64,000 nucleotides of DNA, from NCBI RefSeq assembly GCF_030295405.1, contig NZ_AP027080.1, positions 2,356,001 through 2,420,000 on the forward strand, read 5' to 3'. Each line of letters opens with the position of its first letter. The first letter of the stretch is position 1. The DNA is from Mesoterricola silvestris. Its GTDB lineage: Bacteria > Acidobacteriota > Holophagae > Holophagales > Holophagaceae. The notes under the pieces were generated by a model. The model made no database searches and was not told the DNA's origin. It worked only from the letters and a program-made list of their open reading frames with translations. Shown one piece after another: positions 34,408-43,030 of this stretch. Position numbers and translations under genes: made by a program.

Positions 34408-34732
34408 GTTCCCCCATCCTTATCCCCCCTCATCGGCAAAAATGCCCCGGCCGTTAGCGCAGCGGCCAGGAAAATCCAGGGGGGGAGAACAGGGAAAAGC
34501 CCGGGAATCCGGAACCGGCGCCCGGGAACTTACCTCCGCTTCGACCCGTTCATCCCCCGTTTTCGACCGTTCAGGGAAATTTTTCGGTTTGGGCCAGGAT
34601 CGGGTGTAGCCTGTCTCCAACCCAACCCATGCCCTCGGATTGAATTCAGATCCCATGGCATAAATGCTGGCTGAACACCTACTTAAACATAATTGATTTA
34701 GTTATTAACTCGCAATGCCGAGGGGGAGTTTT
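34408..34732. other. Intergenic region between two divergent genes
   Basis: About 325 bp with no gene found. It contains GGCCG-TTAGCGCAG-CGGCC (about 34449-34467), a small hairpin, and becomes AT-rich over 34670-34712. The Rhs promoter probably lies in that AT-rich part. No riboswitch was recognised. Confidence 0.5.
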
Positions 34733-37700
34733 GTGCGTAAATGGCGTTACCGGCTTTTGAGCACATCCATTAATCTGCTGTTCATCACCCTCGCCCTGGT
34801 GGGAATGCCCGGGGTTCTCCGGGCTCAGTCCTTCCAATCCAGCTTTTCCGAAGTGAAATTCGATCGGGCGAAAGGACCGGCCACCCTGAATGCGGGCGTC
34901 CAGGTGGACGTCGCCTCGGGTGCGGCGAGCCTGGAGATCCCGTTCGGCCCGGGCATCGGGCAGCGCGGGCTCACCTTCCGGCCGACCCTGAGCCTCCGGA
35001 TCGCTCCCCAGGTGGCGGTCAGTTCCATTTTCGAGACCTACGTGGCCCAGGTCAGCAGCCGCGGAACCCTGTACTACAACACGACCACCGTGGACACGAT
35101 CTACCAGCGCGGATACGGAACCTCGAGCTTCTCGCCAGGCTCCTTCGATCTGGCGCTGGGTTCAACGGATGAAACCCAGAGCGCGTACAGGCTTCCCGGC
35201 GGAGGCGGGACCCTCGTGGGCACGGTACCGCCTTCCATGACGGCCGCCGCGGCCGGGCAGCTCCTCGCGCAATTCGGCGTGTCCGGAAGCCTGGGGACCC
35301 TCGCCGGCGATGTGGGGTATCCGGCGGCGCCCTTCATCCAGGTGGGATCCACGGGCGCCTTGATTCTGGGGATCCTGGACGCCGCCGGGGACGTGCAGGA
35401 CTGGCACTACCAGGAGAGCATCGACACGAATGCCATCCAGTGCCGCTGGCCCAGGCGGATCCTGGTGGTGGAGGGGGATGTGGCCTACGAGTTCACCTAT
35501 GTGAGCCACCGATTCCGGACCCAGCTCCGTCCCTACCTCGTCAACACGTCCCGCACCTCCCTCTTCAGCGCCAACTATGCCCTCACCCACATCCGGAACC
35601 GCTTCGGGGAACGCGTCGACTTCACCTACGCTCCGGATGGGATCGGCTACACCGCCACGTGGAGCACGAACCCATCGGTCCGGATCCAGGTCGCCGTGGA
35701 GGGATCCGTGGGGGCGCCGGGCATGCCGAGCCTGGTCTCCAGCGCCTATGGCATGGGCGCCCTGACGCGGGTCCGGGTCTCCTACCAAGGCATCAGCCAC
35801 CCCGTTTCCAGCTTCCTGCTGGATCTGGGCTGCCCGAAACCCATGGAGGCGTTGACCCTGGAAACCGGAGGCGAACCGGACAGCGCCGTCACGAAGCAGC
35901 TCCACGGCCAGCGGAAAATGAACGTGGTCTGGGGCGAGGCCGCCCACTGCCTCCAGCCCGTGAAGGTCCAGCAAACGGATACGGGCGAATCCGTCCAGTT
36001 CGCGTACGCCGTGGCCGGGACCGGCGCGACCTGGGATGGCGTGACCGTTTCGCCGACCGTCCTGAGGAGCGTGACCCTGCCCAACCGGATCGTCACCCTT
36101 GACTGGAAGCCGTACACCTACCAGGCCAACAGCTCCCCCAACGCCTGGGGCATCGCCCCGTCCAGCCAGCGGCGTCCTTCCTGGGCCTTCGGCGTGTCGG
36201 GCCTGACGGATGCGGACCTGATATCCGGCTCGGAACGCGCCACCGGCTACACCCGGGTCGTGCCGCAGCTCAACTGGCTCACCGCGGTGCCGCCCGTCGG
36301 CACCGATCTGACCGAGTCCTGGGTTTCCACCGCGTTCTACACGGCCGTCACGACCCCCGACGGGCAGGTGGCCGTCCACCGGTTCGTGGAGCCCGACCCC
36401 GCGAACGGGATGCAATTCCTGGCCTACCTCAAGCACGTGGAGCGCGAGACCCGCTACTACGCGGCCGGAGTGGGTTGGGAGGCGGACCTGCCGACCCCCG
36501 ATCCCGGCGCCAGCTCGGCCTACAAGTGGGTGGTGAAGGACCGCCTCAGCGTGCACGCCCCGGGCAACGCCCGGGGGGTGCTGACGGACTACCCGGTGCC
36601 CTATGCGACCCGCACCCGCACCTGGGACAAGGATGCCCAGACCTTCACCGCGGAGGAGACGACGAACTGGGAGGCCTCCGGCCTGGGGTGGACCCAGGTC
36701 CACCGCACCACGGCGCTATCCGCCTCCCCCTCCCTCGGGTTCGACGTGTGGAATCTGGCCAGCCAGGGCGCCGGCTGGAGCTCGCCGGGGGCGGCGTCGG
36801 GCACGGAGGACCTGGTGGTCCGAACCCTCGATTCGCGGATCCCCCAGTGGCTCCTCGGCCGGGTGGCCACCGAGACCACCTCCCGGGGAACCGACGCGAC
36901 CCAGAACGGCAGCACCGCGAATCCTCCACCCAAGGTGGCCCGGGAACGGGATGGTGCCCTGAATACCCTCAGGTCCGTGACCACGGGGGACCCGGCGAGC
37001 CTTGCCGTGGTCACCACCCTGGATTACCAGGGAGCCTCGGGCCTTGCCGCCGCCGAAATGCTGAAGGCGACCCTTTCCAGTCCCAACGGCCTCGCCTTCA
37101 GCGGGAGCATGGGCGTCGCCGCCTACGGGTACGACGGCAACGGCTATCTGTCGAGCATCGGCGTCCGGCCCAACGCCGGCCTCCTCCTGACCTCGGGCCA
37201 GGACCAGGACGAAGTGGGCCGGCCAACGGCCCAGCGTGACGCCGACAACCGGACGACCACGTTCGAGTGGGACGGGGCCGGACGCCTCACCCGCATCACG
37301 CCGCCCGGCATGCAGGCCACGGAGATCGCCTACGACGACGTTTCCCACCGGGGCCTGACCGTCACCCGCGGCGCCCAGGTCCAGGCGCTCCGCTATAACG
37401 GGTACGGAGAACTCGTCCTGGAGCGTCGCCTCGACCCCAACGGCGGGTGGTCCCACCGGATCCACGGCTACGACGGCGCGGGCCGCCCCACGGGTGAAAC
37501 GGTCTGGTTGTCCGGGGACGGAGCCGACCACGAGACCCAGTGGATGCTCCCGAACCTGACCCGCCAAACGACCGTGACGGTCCCCGGGGAATCCGTCTGT
37601 AAGAAGTGGGGCGCCATCAATCCCGATACCGGCGAAAGGGCCTGCCTCCAGTGGCAGACCAGCCCGCCCACGACCACCGTGACCGCGGCGCTGTACCGGG

Positions 37701-40144
37701 GTTCTTCGCTCACCTACGATTCCCGGGGAAGGGCCGACACGTCCATCGATCCGGCCGGCCTGACCACCGTGACCGCCTACCCGGCATCGGCCGGATTCAA
37801 GAAGGTGGTGACCGTTGCCGGCACCCGCACGACGCAGTTCCTCCATGACGCCGCGGGCCGCCTGAAGGCGGTCACGGACGCCCTGGGCCAGGTGGCCGCC
37901 TACGGCTACGACGCCTCGAACCGCCTCGTCAGCGTGAGCCAGTCCAGCGGTTCCCACAGCCAGGCCCGGTCCTGGACCTACAACGCGCTGGGCTGGCTCA
38001 CCTCGCTGGAGCAGCCGGAAAGCGGCACCACCACCTATTCCGGATTCACGGTCGCGGGCCGGCCCCAGGTCACGGACTACAACGGCAGGTCCGTGACGGC
38101 CACCCCCGACGGGCTGGGCCGGGTGCTTTCCGTCGTTTCCAGCGACGGCACCGTGAACCAGAGCTTCACCTATGACACGGCGCCCGGCGGCAGAGGCAAG
38201 CCCGCCTGGAGCCAGGATGGGCAGATCCAGGCCACGTACGGGTACGACGGCACCACCGGGCGGCTCAGCACCTTGACGACCCTGGCCGCGGGCCAGAGTC
38301 TCACCCAGACGCTGGGCTACGACGCGTATGGCAACCGGACCTCGGGTTCCACGGGGCACGCGGACTGGACCCAAAGCTATTTCGAAGCCGCCGGCCTCCC
38401 CAGGCTCCTCTCGAGCGGAGGCCAGACCATCGCGGACAGCAGCGACTGGTCGACCAGCTTCGAGCCGGTGAGCTGGCTTCCCCGGGCCGTGGCCTACGGA
38501 AACGGGGCATCCAGCCACTTCTCCTACGGCCCGGACCAGATGCGGCTGGGGACCCTGGAGCACTTCGGTGCGGGAAACGCCGCCCTGGAGCGCTGGGGCT
38601 ACGCGTACGATCCCGCCGGGAACCTGGCCCAGGTCCTGGATCTCAGGACCCTGGAGACGGACGTGTTCGGCTATGACGCGCTCAATCGCCTCGTCTCCGC
38701 CACCCTCCAGAGTCCGAGTTACGGCCCGCAGAGCCAGACCTTCACCTACGACGCCTTCGGGAACCGGATCAGCGGAGCGACCACCAGCCCGGGAACCGTT
38801 TGCCCCTCCACGGCCTACGTGAGTTTCGATCCCAACGATGCCGCGCTGTGGGGCCACAACCGTCTGCCCGTTCAGATGGCCAACGGCGCCTACACCGGCG
38901 CCCAGTACGATGCCCAGGGAAACCTCACCCAGGTCTTTGAGCGCCCCGGGGAGTCGGGCAAGGTGATCACCCTGGGCTACGATGCCCTGGGCCGGGTGAC
39001 CTCGGTGGAGCATTCCTCCCGCGGGGTCCAGGAGCGGTACCAATACCGTGCCGACGGCCTGCGCACCGTCATCCAGGACTATCTCGGGGGGACCTACCAG
39101 AAATCCCGGATTCAGCTCTACAATGATGCCCGGCAGCTGGTGAGCCAGTGGGAGGTCAGTCCCAGCGGATCCTTGACATGGACGCGTGACGTCTTCTACG
39201 TGGGCACCCAGGGCACGGCGGAACGGGATTCCGCAGGCCTCCACGTCACCCAGGTGGACCACCTGGGAAGCCCCCGGGTGGTCACGGGCCCCGCGGGGAC
39301 GGTTGAATCGCGGCAGAAATACCTGCCCTTCGGTGAACTCCTCGAGCAGTCGGGGACCTTCCGGACAGCGAAGGGGTTCACGGGGCACGAGCAGACGGAT
39401 GCATCGGGGCTGATCTACATGCAGGCGCGGTTCTACCTGCCGCAATACGGACGGTTCGCGAGCCCCGATCCGGCCAGGGACCAGCACTTCGAGTTCACGC
39501 AGAGCTGGAACATCAACAGCTACGTGCAGAACAATCCGGTCATGACCACGGACCCCACGGGACTGGCGAGGGAGGAGGAAAAGGATAAGAACAAAACGAC
39601 CTCTGCTACGAAGGCGGATAGTGGGGTTCCCACCGCAGGGGCGGGGGCCAGCGAAAATGAGAATGCTGGAAGACGGCGGCAGGATGAGGAAAAGCGGTCG
39701 CAAGCAGGAACGGCAGGGACGACATCGTGGAGTCCTAATCAACCACTCCCTAAGGACCCAAGCGGGCTTGGACCCGATTGGCAACAAGATAAGGGGCACA
39801 AGAACCCAAATGGAGAAAAGTGGGTTGATGACAAAACCGGTGAGAAGCTTGATTTCGACCGAGCCCAGCCTGGCAAAGGTGGAGAAAAAGAAAATGATCA
39901 CTGGCACTACACCCCACCAGGGCAGGACAAGAAAGGGAAGGAGCATTATCAGCCTGGCGATGTGATCAAGCCTGATGCCAAACCTTCCGACGCTAAGTCG
40001 CGAACTTCACGCATCATGGACTTCCTGAGGTCCATTCCTCCCAAGCCAATTGCCGAAGCGGGGACAGCTGCGGTCATCACATACATCATTGTAAGTGAAG
40101 GGTCGAGAATCATCCCTGCGAGGAACTTGGTGCCTGTTCCCTAG
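34733..40144 (+). CDS. Rhs/YD-repeat polymorphic toxin protein
   Basis: A very large secreted protein of about 1,800 residues. GTG 34733 is preferred since AGGGGGAG lies 4 nt before it; ATG 34715 would add six residues without a ribosome site. A signal peptide (STSINLLFITLALVGMPGVLRA) is followed by a beta-rich N-terminal domain and then many YD repeats from about nt 37,100 (GYDGAGRPTGE, YDAYGNRTSG, YDALGRVTSVE). The conserved Rhs core end follows: VDHLGSPRVVTGPAG, GLIYMQARFYLPQYGRFASP and NNPVMTTDPTGL (about 39,240-39,570). Rhs proteins wrap a toxin tip in this shell. The last 190 residues, from 39,567, are the variable tip: DWQQDKGHKNPNGEKWVDD, a DHWHY motif and a final hydrophobic helix. 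I cannot name that toxin. Codon use turns AT-rich exactly at the tip. Confidence 0.92.
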   Translation: MRKWRYRLLSTSINLLFITLALVGMPGVLRAQSFQSSFSEVKFDRAKGPATLNAGVQVDVASGAASLEIPFGPGIGQRGLTFRPTLSLRIAPQVAVSSIFETYVAQVSSRGTLYYNTTTVDTIYQRGYGTSSFSPGSFDLALGSTDETQSAYRLPGGGGTLVGTVPPSMTAAAAGQLLAQFGVSGSLGTLAGDVGYPAAPFIQVGSTGALILGILDAAGDVQDWHYQESIDTNAIQCRWPRRILVVEGDVAYEFTYVSHRFRTQLRPYLVNTSRTSLFSANYALTHIRNRFGERVDFTYAPDGIGYTATWSTNPSVRIQVAVEGSVGAPGMPSLVSSAYGMGALTRVRVSYQGISHPVSSFLLDLGCPKPMEALTLETGGEPDSAVTKQLHGQRKMNVVWGEAAHCLQPVKVQQTDTGESVQFAYAVAGTGATWDGVTVSPTVLRSVTLPNRIVTLDWKPYTYQANSSPNAWGIAPSSQRRPSWAFGVSGLTDADLISGSERATGYTRVVPQLNWLTAVPPVGTDLTESWVSTAFYTAVTTPDGQVAVHRFVEPDPANGMQFLAYLKHVERETRYYAAGVGWEADLPTPDPGASSAYKWVVKDRLSVHAPGNARGVLTDYPVPYATRTRTWDKDAQTFTAEETTNWEASGLGWTQVHRTTALSASPSLGFDVWNLASQGAGWSSPGAASGTEDLVVRTLDSRIPQWLLGRVATETTSRGTDATQNGSTANPPPKVARERDGALNTLRSVTTGDPASLAVVTTLDYQGASGLAAAEMLKATLSSPNGLAFSGSMGVAAYGYDGNGYLSSIGVRPNAGLLLTSGQDQDEVGRPTAQRDADNRTTTFEWDGAGRLTRITPPGMQATEIAYDDVSHRGLTVTRGAQVQALRYNGYGELVLERRLDPNGGWSHRIHGYDGAGRPTGETVWLSGDGADHETQWMLPNLTRQTTVTVPGESVCKKWGAINPDTGERACLQWQTSPPTTTVTAALYRGSSLTYDSRGRADTSIDPAGLTTVTAYPASAGFKKVVTVAGTRTTQFLHDAAGRLKAVTDALGQVAAYGYDASNRLVSVSQSSGSHSQARSWTYNALGWLTSLEQPESGTTTYSGFTVAGRPQVTDYNGRSVTATPDGLGRVLSVVSSDGTVNQSFTYDTAPGGRGKPAWSQDGQIQATYGYDGTTGRLSTLTTLAAGQSLTQTLGYDAYGNRTSGSTGHADWTQSYFEAAGLPRLLSSGGQTIADSSDWSTSFEPVSWLPRAVAYGNGASSHFSYGPDQMRLGTLEHFGAGNAALERWGYAYDPAGNLAQVLDLRTLETDVFGYDALNRLVSATLQSPSYGPQSQTFTYDAFGNRISGATTSPGTVCPSTAYVSFDPNDAALWGHNRLPVQMANGAYTGAQYDAQGNLTQVFERPGESGKVITLGYDALGRVTSVEHSSRGVQERYQYRADGLRTVIQDYLGGTYQKSRIQLYNDARQLVSQWEVSPSGSLTWTRDVFYVGTQGTAERDSAGLHVTQVDHLGSPRVVTGPAGTVESRQKYLPFGELLEQSGTFRTAKGFTGHEQTDASGLIYMQARFYLPQYGRFASPDPARDQHFEFTQSWNINSYVQNNPVMTTDPTGLAREEEKDKNKTTSATKADSGVPTAGAGASENENAGRRRQDEEKRSQAGTAGTTSWSPNQPLPKDPSGLGPDWQQDKGHKNPNGEKWVDDKTGEKLDFDRAQPGKGGEKENDHWHYTPPGQDKKGKEHYQPGDVIKPDAKPSDAKSRTSRIMDFLRSIPPKPIAEAGTAAVITYIIVSEGSRIIPARNLVPVP

Positions 40145-40166
40145 CCATTAATGATTCGGGTGTGAG

Positions 40167-40568
40167 ATGAAAATCCAAGAACTTGACCAACATTTACCTA
40201 ATGGTATTCACGATGCCGAACTGTATTCCCTCAATGTGGATTTCAAGGCGAAATCCATCAAGATGTTGATAAATTTTTGGATTGGGAATCTCGGTGGATC
40301 AAATCAAGAAATGTATCGGATGGGTGAACTGGATGTAATAAATTTTTCGGTATTTTCCATTGACCCCCCTGATCAAGGCTATCCCTTCATTCCCAATGGG
40401 GATCCATTAACCATCACCAGTTGCCAGCCATCGGAGGGTACCCTTAAGGGCTACAATGCCATATTGAAACGACTGCCGGCGGATTCGGGCGGTATTGGTT
40501 TCTTTGTGGAAGAGTGGAATTCGTTTATCCATATCATTGGAGGTGATGTATACCTAAAATGGAATTAG
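40167..40568 (+). CDS. Putative immunity protein for the Rhs tip
   Basis: A 133-residue soluble protein beginning 22 bp after the Rhs stop codon, the usual place of the cognate immunity gene. It starts MKIQELDQHLPNGIHDAELYSLNVD; the HDAEL motif is common in several small immunity families. No signal peptide or membrane segment is present, so it should neutralise a toxin acting in the cytoplasm. Base composition is clearly AT-richer than the Rhs core. No family name is assigned. Confidence 0.72.
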   Translation: MKIQELDQHLPNGIHDAELYSLNVDFKAKSIKMLINFWIGNLGGSNQEMYRMGELDVINFSVFSIDPPDQGYPFIPNGDPLTITSCQPSEGTLKGYNAILKRLPADSGGIGFFVEEWNSFIHIIGGDVYLKWN

Positions 40569-40678
40569 TCATCTTGGGGTTGTAAGAACTGGCTCTTTGA
40601 TAATCTTTGTCGCAAGCAGACCAGAAATCCTTGCCTGTTGTCTTCGATCCAGAGACCAAGCGTTTCGAAGGCATTTAG

Positions 40679-41092
40679 GTGGGACCAACAGTCACCGGCT
40701 CGGTACCCTCCACGAAAGGCGGAGGCAAGCTAGATAAGGAGAAATTCGTCAGGTTTGCTACTGCAAATGCTAAAGCTAAATCACAAGGACGTTGTGCAAT
40801 GGCTATCCGGAAGGGGCTAGAAGCAGGGGGACTAAGCACAAATGGTCGCCCGGGAGACGCGAAGGATTACGGCCCATTCTTAGAGCGCCTCGGAGCCTCG
40901 GCGGTTGGCGCTAGCGGAAGCCCTCCACAGACAGGTGATATCGCGGTTTTCGGTGGAAATGATTCACATCCGCATGGCCAAATTGAGACTTTCAATGGGA
41001 GTGGATGGGTTTCTGATTTCAAACAAAATAATTTCAATCCTTATCGAACAGATCCTACCCCAAGTCAAATTTTCAGGTTTCCCGATACCTGA
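40679..41092 (+). pseudogene. Displaced amidase-like toxin tip (orphan Rhs cassette)
   Basis: A 137-residue reading frame with no start of its own that looks natural: a TAG stands directly before the first GTG, and the same frame continues upstream of it as LPVVFDPETKRFEG to a TAA at 40601. The body resembles cysteine amidase effectors of the CHAP/NlpC-P60 kind: GRCAMAIRKGLEAGG (putative nucleophile Cys), PPQTGDIAVFGG, and HPHGQIETFNGSGWVSDFKQ (putative catalytic His). Such effectors cut peptidoglycan stems. It follows the first immunity gene and precedes a periplasmic immunity candidate, as in displaced Rhs C-terminal cassettes. It is probably silent unless recombined onto an Rhs core. Confidence 0.65.
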
Positions 41093-41161
41093 TAGTATAT
41101 TCCTTCCCGAAGGAGTCCCGGGGTCAGCAAGTGCTCTCTATAGAAGAATAAAAAGGTGCCT

Positions 41162-41716
41162 ATGTTCAGATCTGCAGTGTTTGGTCGAATTGCCCTAGCT
41201 TATGGGATGGGGATTGCTTTGCCCATCTCACTTTCAGCGCAACCCGCGCGACCAGTTGCGGCAACATCCAATATCGAGAGCTTCGTGCAAAATTTTTACA
41301 ACTGGTATGCACCCATGGCAATTCGAGGTGGTGGTGACCAATCAGCCTGGGAAGTCGCGATCAAGAAAAAGGGAAGTCTATTTACTCCGCAGCTTCTCAA
41401 AGCGCTGAAAGCTGATTCAGATGCGCAAGCGAAAACGCCGGGAGAAATCGTAGGGATTGACTTCGATCCGTTCTTAAGCAGCCAAGACCCCGTAAAACGT
41501 TACGTAGTTGGCAAGGTCGTTCAGGACGGTGACAAGTATTTAATTGAAATTTTTGGAGTCCAGCCCGGAAAAATGAAGGAAAGACCTGACGTAATTGCAG
41601 AAGTAACCGCATTAGAAGGGAAATTTCAATTCAGTAATTTTAATTATCAAAAAAATCGCGATTTGCTTGATGTATTAAAGAAGCTCGCGGCGGATCGTGC
41701 AAGGCCTCAAAAATAG
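41162..41716 (+). CDS. Periplasmic immunity candidate (DUF3828-like)
   Basis: A 184-residue exported protein. ATG 41162 has AAGG seven bases upstream. The signal peptide (AYGMGIALPISLSAQ) directs it to the periplasm. The segments FVQNFYNWYAP, GIDFDPFLSSQDPVKRYVV and a C-terminal beta-rich part resemble DUF3828 (YbjP/YqhG-like) proteins, several of which accompany peptidoglycan-amidase effectors. Location beside the amidase-like tip and export to the compartment where that toxin would act support an immunity role. The family assignment is by eye. Confidence 0.7.
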   Translation: MFRSAVFGRIALAYGMGIALPISLSAQPARPVAATSNIESFVQNFYNWYAPMAIRGGGDQSAWEVAIKKKGSLFTPQLLKALKADSDAQAKTPGEIVGIDFDPFLSSQDPVKRYVVGKVVQDGDKYLIEIFGVQPGKMKERPDVIAEVTALEGKFQFSNFNYQKNRDLLDVLKKLAADRARPQK

Positions 41717-41721
41717 GTAGT

Positions 41722-42643
41722 TATCCGGCTCGGAACGCGCCACCGGCTACACCCGGGGGGTGCTGACGGACTACCCGGTGCCCTATGCGACCCGCACCCG
41801 CACCTGGGACAAGGATGCCCAGACCTTCACCGCGGAGGAGACGACGAACTGGGACGCGTCCGGCCTGGGGTGGACCCAGGTCCACAGCACCACGGCGCTA
41901 TCCGCCTCCCCCTCCCTCGGGTTCGACGTGTGGAATCTGGCCAGCCAGGGCGCCGGCTGGAGCTCGCCGGGGGCAGCGTCGGGCACGGAGGACCTGGTGG
42001 TCCGAACCCTCGATTCGCGGATCCCCCAGTGGCTCCTCGGCCGGGTGGTCACCGAGACCACCTCCCGGGGAACCGACGCGACCCAGAACGGCAGCACCGC
42101 GAATCCCCCACCCAAGGTGGCCCGGGAACGGGATGGTGCCCTGACAGGATCCACGGCTACGACGGCGCGGGCCGCCCCACGGGTGAAACGGTCTGGTTGT
42201 CCGGGGACGGAGCCGACCACGAGACCCAGCGGATGCTCCCGAACCTGACCCGCCAAACGACCGTGACGGTCCCCGGGGAATCCGTCTGTAAGAAGTGGGG
42301 CGCCATCAATCCCGATACCGGCGAAAGGGCCTGCCTCCAGTGGCAGACCAGCCCGCCGACGACCACCGTGACCGTGGCGCTGTACCGGGGTTCTTCGCTC
42401 ACCTACGATTCCCGGGGAAGGGCCGACACGTCCATCGATCCGGCCGGCCTGACCACCGTGACCGCCTACCCGGCATCGGCCGGATTCAAGAAGGTGGTGA
42501 CCGTTGCCGGCACCCGCACGACGCAGTTCCTCCATGACGCCGCGGGCCGCCTGAAGGCGGTCACGGACGCCCTGGGCCAGGTGGCCGCCTACGGCTACGA
42601 CGCCTCGAACCGCCTCGTCAGCGTGAGCCAGTCCGATATTTAG
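41722..42643 (+). pseudogene. Scrambled second copy of Rhs core DNA
   Basis: Three blocks nearly identical to the upstream Rhs gene, joined with internal deletions. Positions 41722-41757 match 36222-36257; 41752-42144 match 36570-36962; 42147-42634 match 37458-37945. The first junction lies in a shared CCCGGG. The second shifts the reading frame, so no Rhs product is possible. Only a handful of base differences were seen per block (for example GAGGCCTCC to GACGCGTCC at the start of the second). The copy ends abruptly at SQSDI-stop where low-GC DNA begins. It can serve as homology for cassette exchange with the full gene. Confidence 0.88.
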
Positions 42644-42709: not shown

Positions 42710-42937
42710 ATGTCGAAAACTACCGTCGCCATTTTTTCTCTTATTTTTTTGGGTTTTAGTGAAATGTATGCTCTGTATCGGTTGCTTTTTGCTCTGTGGA
42801 TGACTGCCTATCCAATGGTTGACCATGGAGCCTGGAGGAAATCTGCCTATGGATGGCTAGGAACAAGCATAGGTATTGGCTTCTTGTTTATTGCCATTCT
42901 TGTTTGGGCAATTCGTCAAAAGGGTCGGCATGCCTAG
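42710..42937 (+). CDS. Small two-helix membrane protein in the Rhs cassette region
   Basis: A 75-residue protein with a GGGGGA ribosome site. Two hydrophobic helices (VAIFSLIFLGFSEMYALYRL and GWLGTSIGIGFLFIAILVWA) flank a short loop with MVDHGAWRKSAYG. The DNA is AT-rich like the other cassettes. Because it follows the second Rhs core copy, it may be an orphan membrane immunity protein whose toxin has been lost. No family is recognised. Confidence 0.6.
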   Translation: MSKTTVAIFSLIFLGFSEMYALYRLLFALWMTAYPMVDHGAWRKSAYGWLGTSIGIGFLFIAILVWAIRQKGRHA

Positions 42938-43030
42938 TATTTCGTGTCGCAAACAACCAGTGCCTTGCATTTTGATGCAACAACGGGGCTGGCCTGGATT
43001 CAAACGAACCGAGTGAACATGCGTTTTCCC

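Follow-up and report, generated by a model that had tools for sequence, protein, structure and literature searches.

A probable exchangeable toxin-immunity cassette closing an Rhs gene of Mesoterricola silvestris, with a tip and partner of predicted PT7/PIM7-like fold

What does the variable end of an Rhs gene encode when no catalogued toxin family claims it, and how might such ends come to be exchanged? The question is raised by a 64,000-nucleotide stretch of DNA from the acidobacteriotan Mesoterricola silvestris (contig NZ_AP027080.1, positions 2,356,001 to 2,420,000; hereafter the window), in which an Rhs gene on the forward strand (34715-40144) codes for an 1809-residue protein with RHS/YD repeats and an Rhs core. 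An earlier sequence-only reading had recognized at its end a tip of unfamiliar type followed by an immunity candidate. We regard this region as an exchangeable toxin-immunity cassette that ends an Rhs shell, with a PT7-like nuclease as the tip and a PIM7-like protein as its immunity partner, and assign this reading, which leans on predicted structures, a probability of roughly 60%. It would give a testable identity to an uncatalogued toxin/immunity family spread across several phyla, and the predicted fold would tie this Rhs-borne family to a pair previously ascribed to type VII secretion.

The Rhs class features score clearly in the 1809-residue protein (PF05593, E 1.2e-33; TIGR03696, E 6.5e-20), and the shell, comprising the YD repeats and Rhs core and further delimited by DNA identity to sibling genes, occupies 34715-39568 (+), with the DPTGL motif at its end. 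This marker, as had been reported, stands directly before the tip, though the frame after it begins at 39569 and not at 39567. The tip itself comprises 191 residues (39569-40141, with the stop codon extending through 40144), where 190 had been counted, and contains both the HKNPNGEKWVDD motif (39797-39832) and the DHWHY motif (39896-39910) that had drawn attention to it. The partner was likewise placed correctly: after a 22-bp gap comes an open reading frame (ORF) of 133 residues (40167-40568, +), of which residues 15-19 read HDAEL. The DNA had also been described as abruptly becoming AT-rich; the GC content does fall along the tip and partner gene, but it does so in steps, from 68.0% in the shell (window mean 69.3%) to 58.0% in the first 46 tip codons, 53.3% in the remaining tip and 42.4% in the partner gene.

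In Photorhabdus Rhs1, the shell cleaves itself, and its C-terminal cut relies on an aspartate within a conserved aspartyl-protease motif (PMC8636562). As the DPTGL motif is present in the window protein, its shell would most likely cut itself after this motif in the manner of Rhs1 and thereby release the 191-residue tip. Among the features from which a delivery route might be inferred, the N-terminus of the shell resembles a signal peptide by eye, the 1809-residue protein has no PAAR row in the Pfam scan, and a PF05591 (T6SS_VipA) gene lies in the same genome, about 1 Mb from the Rhs gene.

That the tip is a variable end on a conserved shell is apparent from the genome itself, in which the end of the Rhs core is matched six times, counting the window. 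From 34506 onward, the window DNA is 99.4% identical to the sibling locus L039 through base 39707 and 99.3% identical to the sibling locus L040 through 39565 (DPTGL), with no match past either point, and the tips of both siblings read unlike that of the window. Different tips are thus borne on near-identical shells, with the exchange point lying 46 codons past DPTGL with respect to L039 and at DPTGL with respect to L040. Because the 46-codon linker (39569-39706, +) is common to the window and L039 genes, their junction can be placed near 39698-39707. The sibling tips (L039 3413-4000, L040 7233-7889 and L041 3449-4081) are of differing types: one is L,D-transpeptidase-like and one papain/NlpC-like, both by eye and both without a Pfam row, and one is HNH-like, with PF01844 below the cut-off (E 0.041). 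Those of L039 and L040 reach no Pfam family.

Profile searches left the type of the window tip unrecognized, as had been claimed, in that neither it nor four related tips (L010, L011, L014 and L015) gave a Pfam or NCBIfam row above the cut-off; the same holds for the window partner and five partners of related tips. The tip nevertheless belongs to a family, as an approximately 75-residue core (39746-39961, +) with a D-H-W-H motif and a distal histidine recurs at 13 further loci, which span several phyla: one lies on a Methylosinus plasmid (L003) and one in another acidobacteriotan genome (L004), and the rest (L010-L020) come from a genome collection, with sources that include Caenimonas, Rhodobacteraceae, Polyangiaceae, Planctomycetota and Jidongwangia. 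The last we take to be an actinobacterium. An alignment of 13 tips, from which L020 with its broken reading frame is left out and in which L016 and L019 are partial, shows invariant G, L, G, D-H-W-H, H, P and G. The DHWH (39896-39907, +) and the distal histidine (39944-39946, +) are, on grounds of this conservation, candidate active-site residues.

Judged from the sequences recovered, the core family looks rare: a search of 396 genomes of the phylum, this one among them, gave a single true new tip (L004), and a search of 300 genomes in the order of genome G396 recovered G396 alone. Both searches scored only the 10-14 or so best candidates per genome, and the scan that yielded L010-L020 required exact short peptides; hence, all these counts are lower bounds. 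No relative of the tip was found in phage records and viral contigs. The matches at the weak end of the tip search (L002 and L005-L009) were rejected, as their translations lack the core, and an HNH/EndoVII type, an idea taken from PMC3482391, finds no support in a Pfam row for the window tip or its four relatives. A literature search for DHWHH gave none among the matches listed, and one for DHWH with toxin gave nothing on bacterial tips, judged by title. One family member (L017) comes from a 5.5-kb contig binned as Archaeoglobaceae, where the tip and an immunity gene lie on an Rhs fragment; this is possibly mis-binned bacterial DNA.

The 133-residue partner, proposed earlier as the immunity candidate, shows a comparable association. 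A small ORF with an HD motif ([LIFM]HD[ACSG]x[LIV] within the first 45 residues) follows the tip at all 14 tip loci, counting the window and L020, as against one among 640 further distinct ORFs, with the pattern having been defined after the partners were seen and most of the comparison set being six-frame ORFs, not genes. Given that the core is kept in 13 other loci and the HD motif in 14/14 partners, the pairing of tip and partner in the window is not a matter of chance. Sequence profiles divide the partners into groups, two of which match each other weakly (10.8%, E 0.0028). In profile-profile comparison with hhalign, the family to which the window partner belongs matches the proteins that accompany nine of the related tips (93.8%, E 1.7e-7 for a single comparison, 68 columns). 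As the 133-residue protein shows no signal peptide by eye, it would act in the cytoplasm.

The earlier statement that the toxin cannot be named still stands at the level of Pfam and NCBIfam cut-offs; structure comparison, on the other hand, now suggests a PT7-like nuclease. The AlphaFold2 (AF2) model of the tip has a predicted local distance difference test score (pLDDT) near 94 over residues 11-50, with block means that stay at or above 87 as far as residue 80 and low values in the tail. Compared by VIA-align (VIA) with 285 chains, it has as its top row 8owu_B, the Bacillus cereus toxin PT7 (Z 4.9, root-mean-square deviation (rmsd) 3.9, 65 residues). The model of the immunity protein (pLDDT 86), compared with 1000 chains, has as its top row 8owu_E, which is PIM7 (Z 8.3, rmsd 4.0, 105 residues); this Z is just over the VIA level of 8 and is in line with a PIM7 fold. 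The next rows are 5v77_A, an uncharacterized Neisseria protein (Z 7.0), and others at 5.3 or lower. Foldseek ranks 5v77 first and second for this model and 8owu_E/D third and fourth (probability 0.99/0.97, E 0.018/0.026), with the top four spanning E 0.011 to 0.026.

The known pair (PDB 8owu; Nachmias et al.) combines a small C-terminal toxin (a 76-residue chain) with an immunity partner, as is proposed for the window, and supplies the top VIA row for both window models. As the two models were built from separate alignments, their agreement on one PDB entry is informative: each score is modest by itself, and it is the convergence of two separately built models on both partners of one complex that suggests the PT7/PIM7-like reading. 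PT7 is described as a non-specific deoxyribonuclease (DNase) without similarity to known nucleases and is ascribed to type VII secretion (review PMC9990079), whereas the window tip is carried on an Rhs shell. On this model, the core would be a small PT7-type nuclease that most likely cleaves DNA in the cytoplasm, with the 133-residue product as its cognate PIM7-like immunity protein in the same compartment. The architecture, the conservation of the family, its association with HD-motif partners, the predicted folds and the differing tips on near-identical shells are observed; we infer the toxicity, the DNase activity, the catalytic residues, the function of the tail and the route of delivery.

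Several results weigh against this reading. On the side of the tip, the Z of 4.9 lies under the VIA safe level, and Foldseek returned nothing significant (best E 1.0), with 8owu_B absent from the best 50 of 89 rows; the kinases, virus coat protein and RNA polymerase that it did list were judged to be chance matches. Searched with a profile of the tip family, the PDB yielded no sequence up to E 10, and the L010 core alone gave only weak, unrelated matches to PDB sequences. On the side of the partner, Foldseek gave no row at E 0.001, and two immunity-protein profiles likewise retrieved nothing from the PDB at E 10. The hhalign comparison with the four remaining partners was weak (5.0%, E 0.0079), and a leave-one-out hidden Markov model (HMM) missed the window immunity protein (6.2 bits against 10.2 for the best shuffle), so that sequence alone does not recover the window partner; the L011 and L018 partners likewise fell under their best shuffles. 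Finally, the window immunity protein has a family of its own in the phylum (12/297 genomes, own genome included), and at its 12 other loci, which come from 11 other genomes and of which two are near-identical, no Rhs tip was seen by eye to end within 700 bp upstream. Because sequence similarity to PT7 or PIM7 was detected for neither protein, we term the pair PT7/PIM7-like and do not file it as a member.

An alternative that also takes the core for a nuclease, and which we hold to be unlikely though not negligible, is that the tip cleaves ribosomal RNA as a colicin E3-type ribonuclease instead of DNA. The predicted core is small and beta-rich with acidic and histidine residues, as would befit such an enzyme, and its VIA list contains both colicin E3 (1jch_A 467-537; Z 3.7, rmsd 3.5, 62 residues) and, lower, RNase Sa2 (3d4a_B, Z 2.2). 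This likeness to colicin E3 is, however, weaker than that to PT7, even if alpha-glucosidase (3.9) and virus coat rows also fall between the two; moreover, the partner matches PIM7 best, and the window tip and its four scanned relatives lack a row for the E3 ribosomal RNA ribonucleases (PF09000). A DHWH motif is not known as a feature of colicin E3.

The hydrophobic end of the tip raises a different prospect. The sequence-only reading had ended the tip in a final hydrophobic helix; a hydrophobic end is indeed present (40049-40141), and is better read as a portable tail (40046-40141, +; end IVSEGSR..P.RN..P.P). It is common to L011 of the same tip family, to an Rhs protein with another tip (L045 418-1587, E 5.8e-8, in 1/300 genomes) and, weakly (E 0.3), to a PAAR-like effector on a Robbsia plasmid (L044 1041-2087; PAAR part PF13665, E 5.2e-36), and other members of the tip family have different hydrophobic ends by eye. 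As proteins with other cores share it, the tail looks portable from its sequence distribution, and its treatment as part of the toxin fold was dropped in view of this recurrence and the low pLDDT there. As a portable membrane segment, it may assist passage of the toxin across the inner membrane or hold it there, though any part in such passage amounts to a guess. One might instead suppose that this end kills by forming pores or depolarizing the membrane, as Tse5 does, with the core only guiding it: most tip-family members have hydrophobic C-terminal segments by eye, and an Rhs pore-forming toxin does exist (PMC10684867). We consider this improbable, since it is the core that is conserved in the family while the tail varies, the same tail is found on other cores with other downstream genes, and the partner has no membrane segment by eye. 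The L045 Rhs gene is followed by a gene for a pentapeptide-repeat-like protein, by eye.

Slightly more improbable still is that the 133-residue protein is a passenger and immunity comes from something else. A passenger would be in keeping with the negative leave-one-out HMM and with the 12 loci of the phylum at which its relatives lie away from Rhs tips, in two cases beside a carboxylase-like gene by eye. The HD motif in every partner, the ORF downstream of the tip at every locus, the profile-profile match and the PIM7-like predicted fold argue for an immunity protein. Those other loci (L047-L058) show the motifs LPNG.HDA and WNSFIH of the window immunity family, and the carboxylase-like gene adjoins the two near-identical ones; no relative of the immunity protein was found in plasmids and viral contigs. 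The least probable alternative by our reckoning, a non-toxic processing or adhesion domain, is at odds with the immunity-type partner at 14/14 loci and with the Tlde1 domain that scores above the cut-off in one of three displaced tips scanned in this genome, and no structural, non-toxic domain was found to match the tip.

If the locus is taken as an exchangeable PT7/PIM7-like cassette, the manner of its exchange becomes the next question. The sequence TCGCAAGCAG occurs exactly twice in the window, as a 10-bp direct repeat that flanks the tip-immunity cassette: the 5' boundary copy (39698-39707, +) reads Ser-Gln-Ala in frame, and the 3' copy (40610-40619, +), 41 bp past the immunity stop, is the apparent start of an older displaced cassette. 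The related TCGCAANCAG recurs at tip-cassette starts in four further loci of two species, often beside a mobile element with two recombinases. Its copy number is by itself weak evidence, the ratios to a backward control being 17/3 in this genome, 10/9 in G097, 9/6 in G706, 8/6 in G707, 13/6 in G708 and 11/8 in G709; rather, it is the placement of the copies that counts. In this genome, 11/17 copies belong to Rhs loci or to the array that follows L039, and these stand on the coding strand; the binomial tail is 1.5e-22, and 3e-18 once duplicates are removed (9/15), with region sizes set by us and a motif found post hoc. The surroundings of one of the other six were viewed; in G097, the copies examined were the 6/10 that lie in two clusters.

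The copies at examined loci therefore again number 17 (11 from this genome and 6 from G097). Four are located within an rhs gene (window, L039, L043 and L101), where they read Ser-Gln in frame, eight lie 0, 0, 2, 4, 14, 18, 18 or 41 bp after the stop of an upstream ORF, and three abut the right end of the mobile element; two (L040 and L100 14228) have no such neighbor. Hence, 15/17 occupy the kind of position expected of an integron-like system with a fixed site. A base-by-base table of 15 copies, which leaves out the second duplicated cassette (R 20283) and L100 14228, has the TCGCAANCAG block and a preceding G (14/15) as its sole conserved part, with the block itself having been the selection criterion and several copies being related by descent. 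At L043 and L101, the motif stands on both sides of the tip and its following genes on other shells, and at L100, cassettes are present with no shell match in the stretch fetched.

Downstream of the L039 Rhs gene lies an array of about 25 kb of displaced tip-immunity cassettes (L070/L071; G000:C1:4814354-4838999, minus strand), the source of the Tlde1 tip mentioned above. It contains a tandem duplication of 1080 bp (99.7% identity) together with an approximately 8-kb element in two copies that are 91-93% identical. A serine recombinase was identified in one copy and a DnaG-like protein and a tyrosine recombinase in the other; TCGCAANCAG follows three of four right ends of this element type, and TCGCAGACAA follows the fourth.

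This boundary pattern suggests, without proving, integron-like cassette exchange, and exchange driven by microhomology may be an alternative. Under an integron-like scheme, each cassette would start with the 11-bp G-TCGCAANCAG, new cassettes would enter at the copy within the shell gene and push older ones downstream into arrays, and the recombinase would come from the element, which abuts the site with its right end and carries a serine recombinase, a DnaG-like protein and a tyrosine recombinase. Taken as a whole, the proposal that the genus moves its Rhs cassettes by such a site-specific system, and that the window cassette carries a new Rhs-borne branch of the PT7-like nucleases, is one we put forward tentatively and hold to be rather doubtful. 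The fixed short boundary itself, which recurs in a congener as well as at further Rhs loci here, makes it testable how unrelated tips are swapped precisely onto conserved shells.

Known systems resemble this arrangement in several respects. Rhs and contact-dependent growth inhibition (CDI) tip systems share with it the conserved shell, the DPxGL motif, the variable tip, an immunity gene, here a putative one, and displaced tips downstream (PMC3150448, PMC3967940, PMC4927057). The main and orphan rhs genes of Salmonella have 522 bp in common for homologous recombination (PMC3967940), whereas the cassette starts here share only G-TCGCAANCAG. Some CDI orphans are without shared upstream sequence (PMC3150448), and transposition and site-specific recombination have already been proposed for CDI arrays (PMC4927057). 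In Vibrio cholerae, the effectors of the type VI secretion system form arrays through successive displacement, as here, and are compared by their authors to integrons (PMC5361080); they are headed there as being 'without specific integration sites', which differs from the fixed short boundary of the present loci. In the passages of PMC5361080, PMC3150448 and PMC4927057 covered here, no fixed boundary sequence was seen, and a short boundary of fixed sequence is, to us, the new feature.

The DNA past the second boundary shows what an earlier exchange might have left behind. From the motif at 40610, the frame stays open for 22 codons only, and the displaced tip proper (40679-41092, +) begins at a GTG in another frame. 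It is CHAP/NlpC-P60-like, that is, of the peptidoglycan hydrolase type, with PF05257 below the cut-off (E 0.031) and, by tblastn, similarity to NlpC/P60-annotated genes on plasmids (38.5% identity, E 3e-14). The 186-residue ORF that follows (41156-41716, +) has a signal-peptide-like start by eye and no Pfam row, and from its position and composition may provide that tip with immunity in the periplasm. We infer, from starts judged by eye, that partners with signal-peptide-like starts pair with wall-acting tips and that the window partner, having none, pairs with a cytoplasmic target. Farther downstream lies an rhs shell remnant (41722-42634, +) in three non-contiguous pieces, 95-99% identical to 36222-36263, 36556-36962 and 37455-37945. 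Beyond it, a 44-bp block (42912-42955) that is 97.7% identical to L040 8484-8527 ends near the boundary motif and is possibly the far end of an older cassette arrangement.

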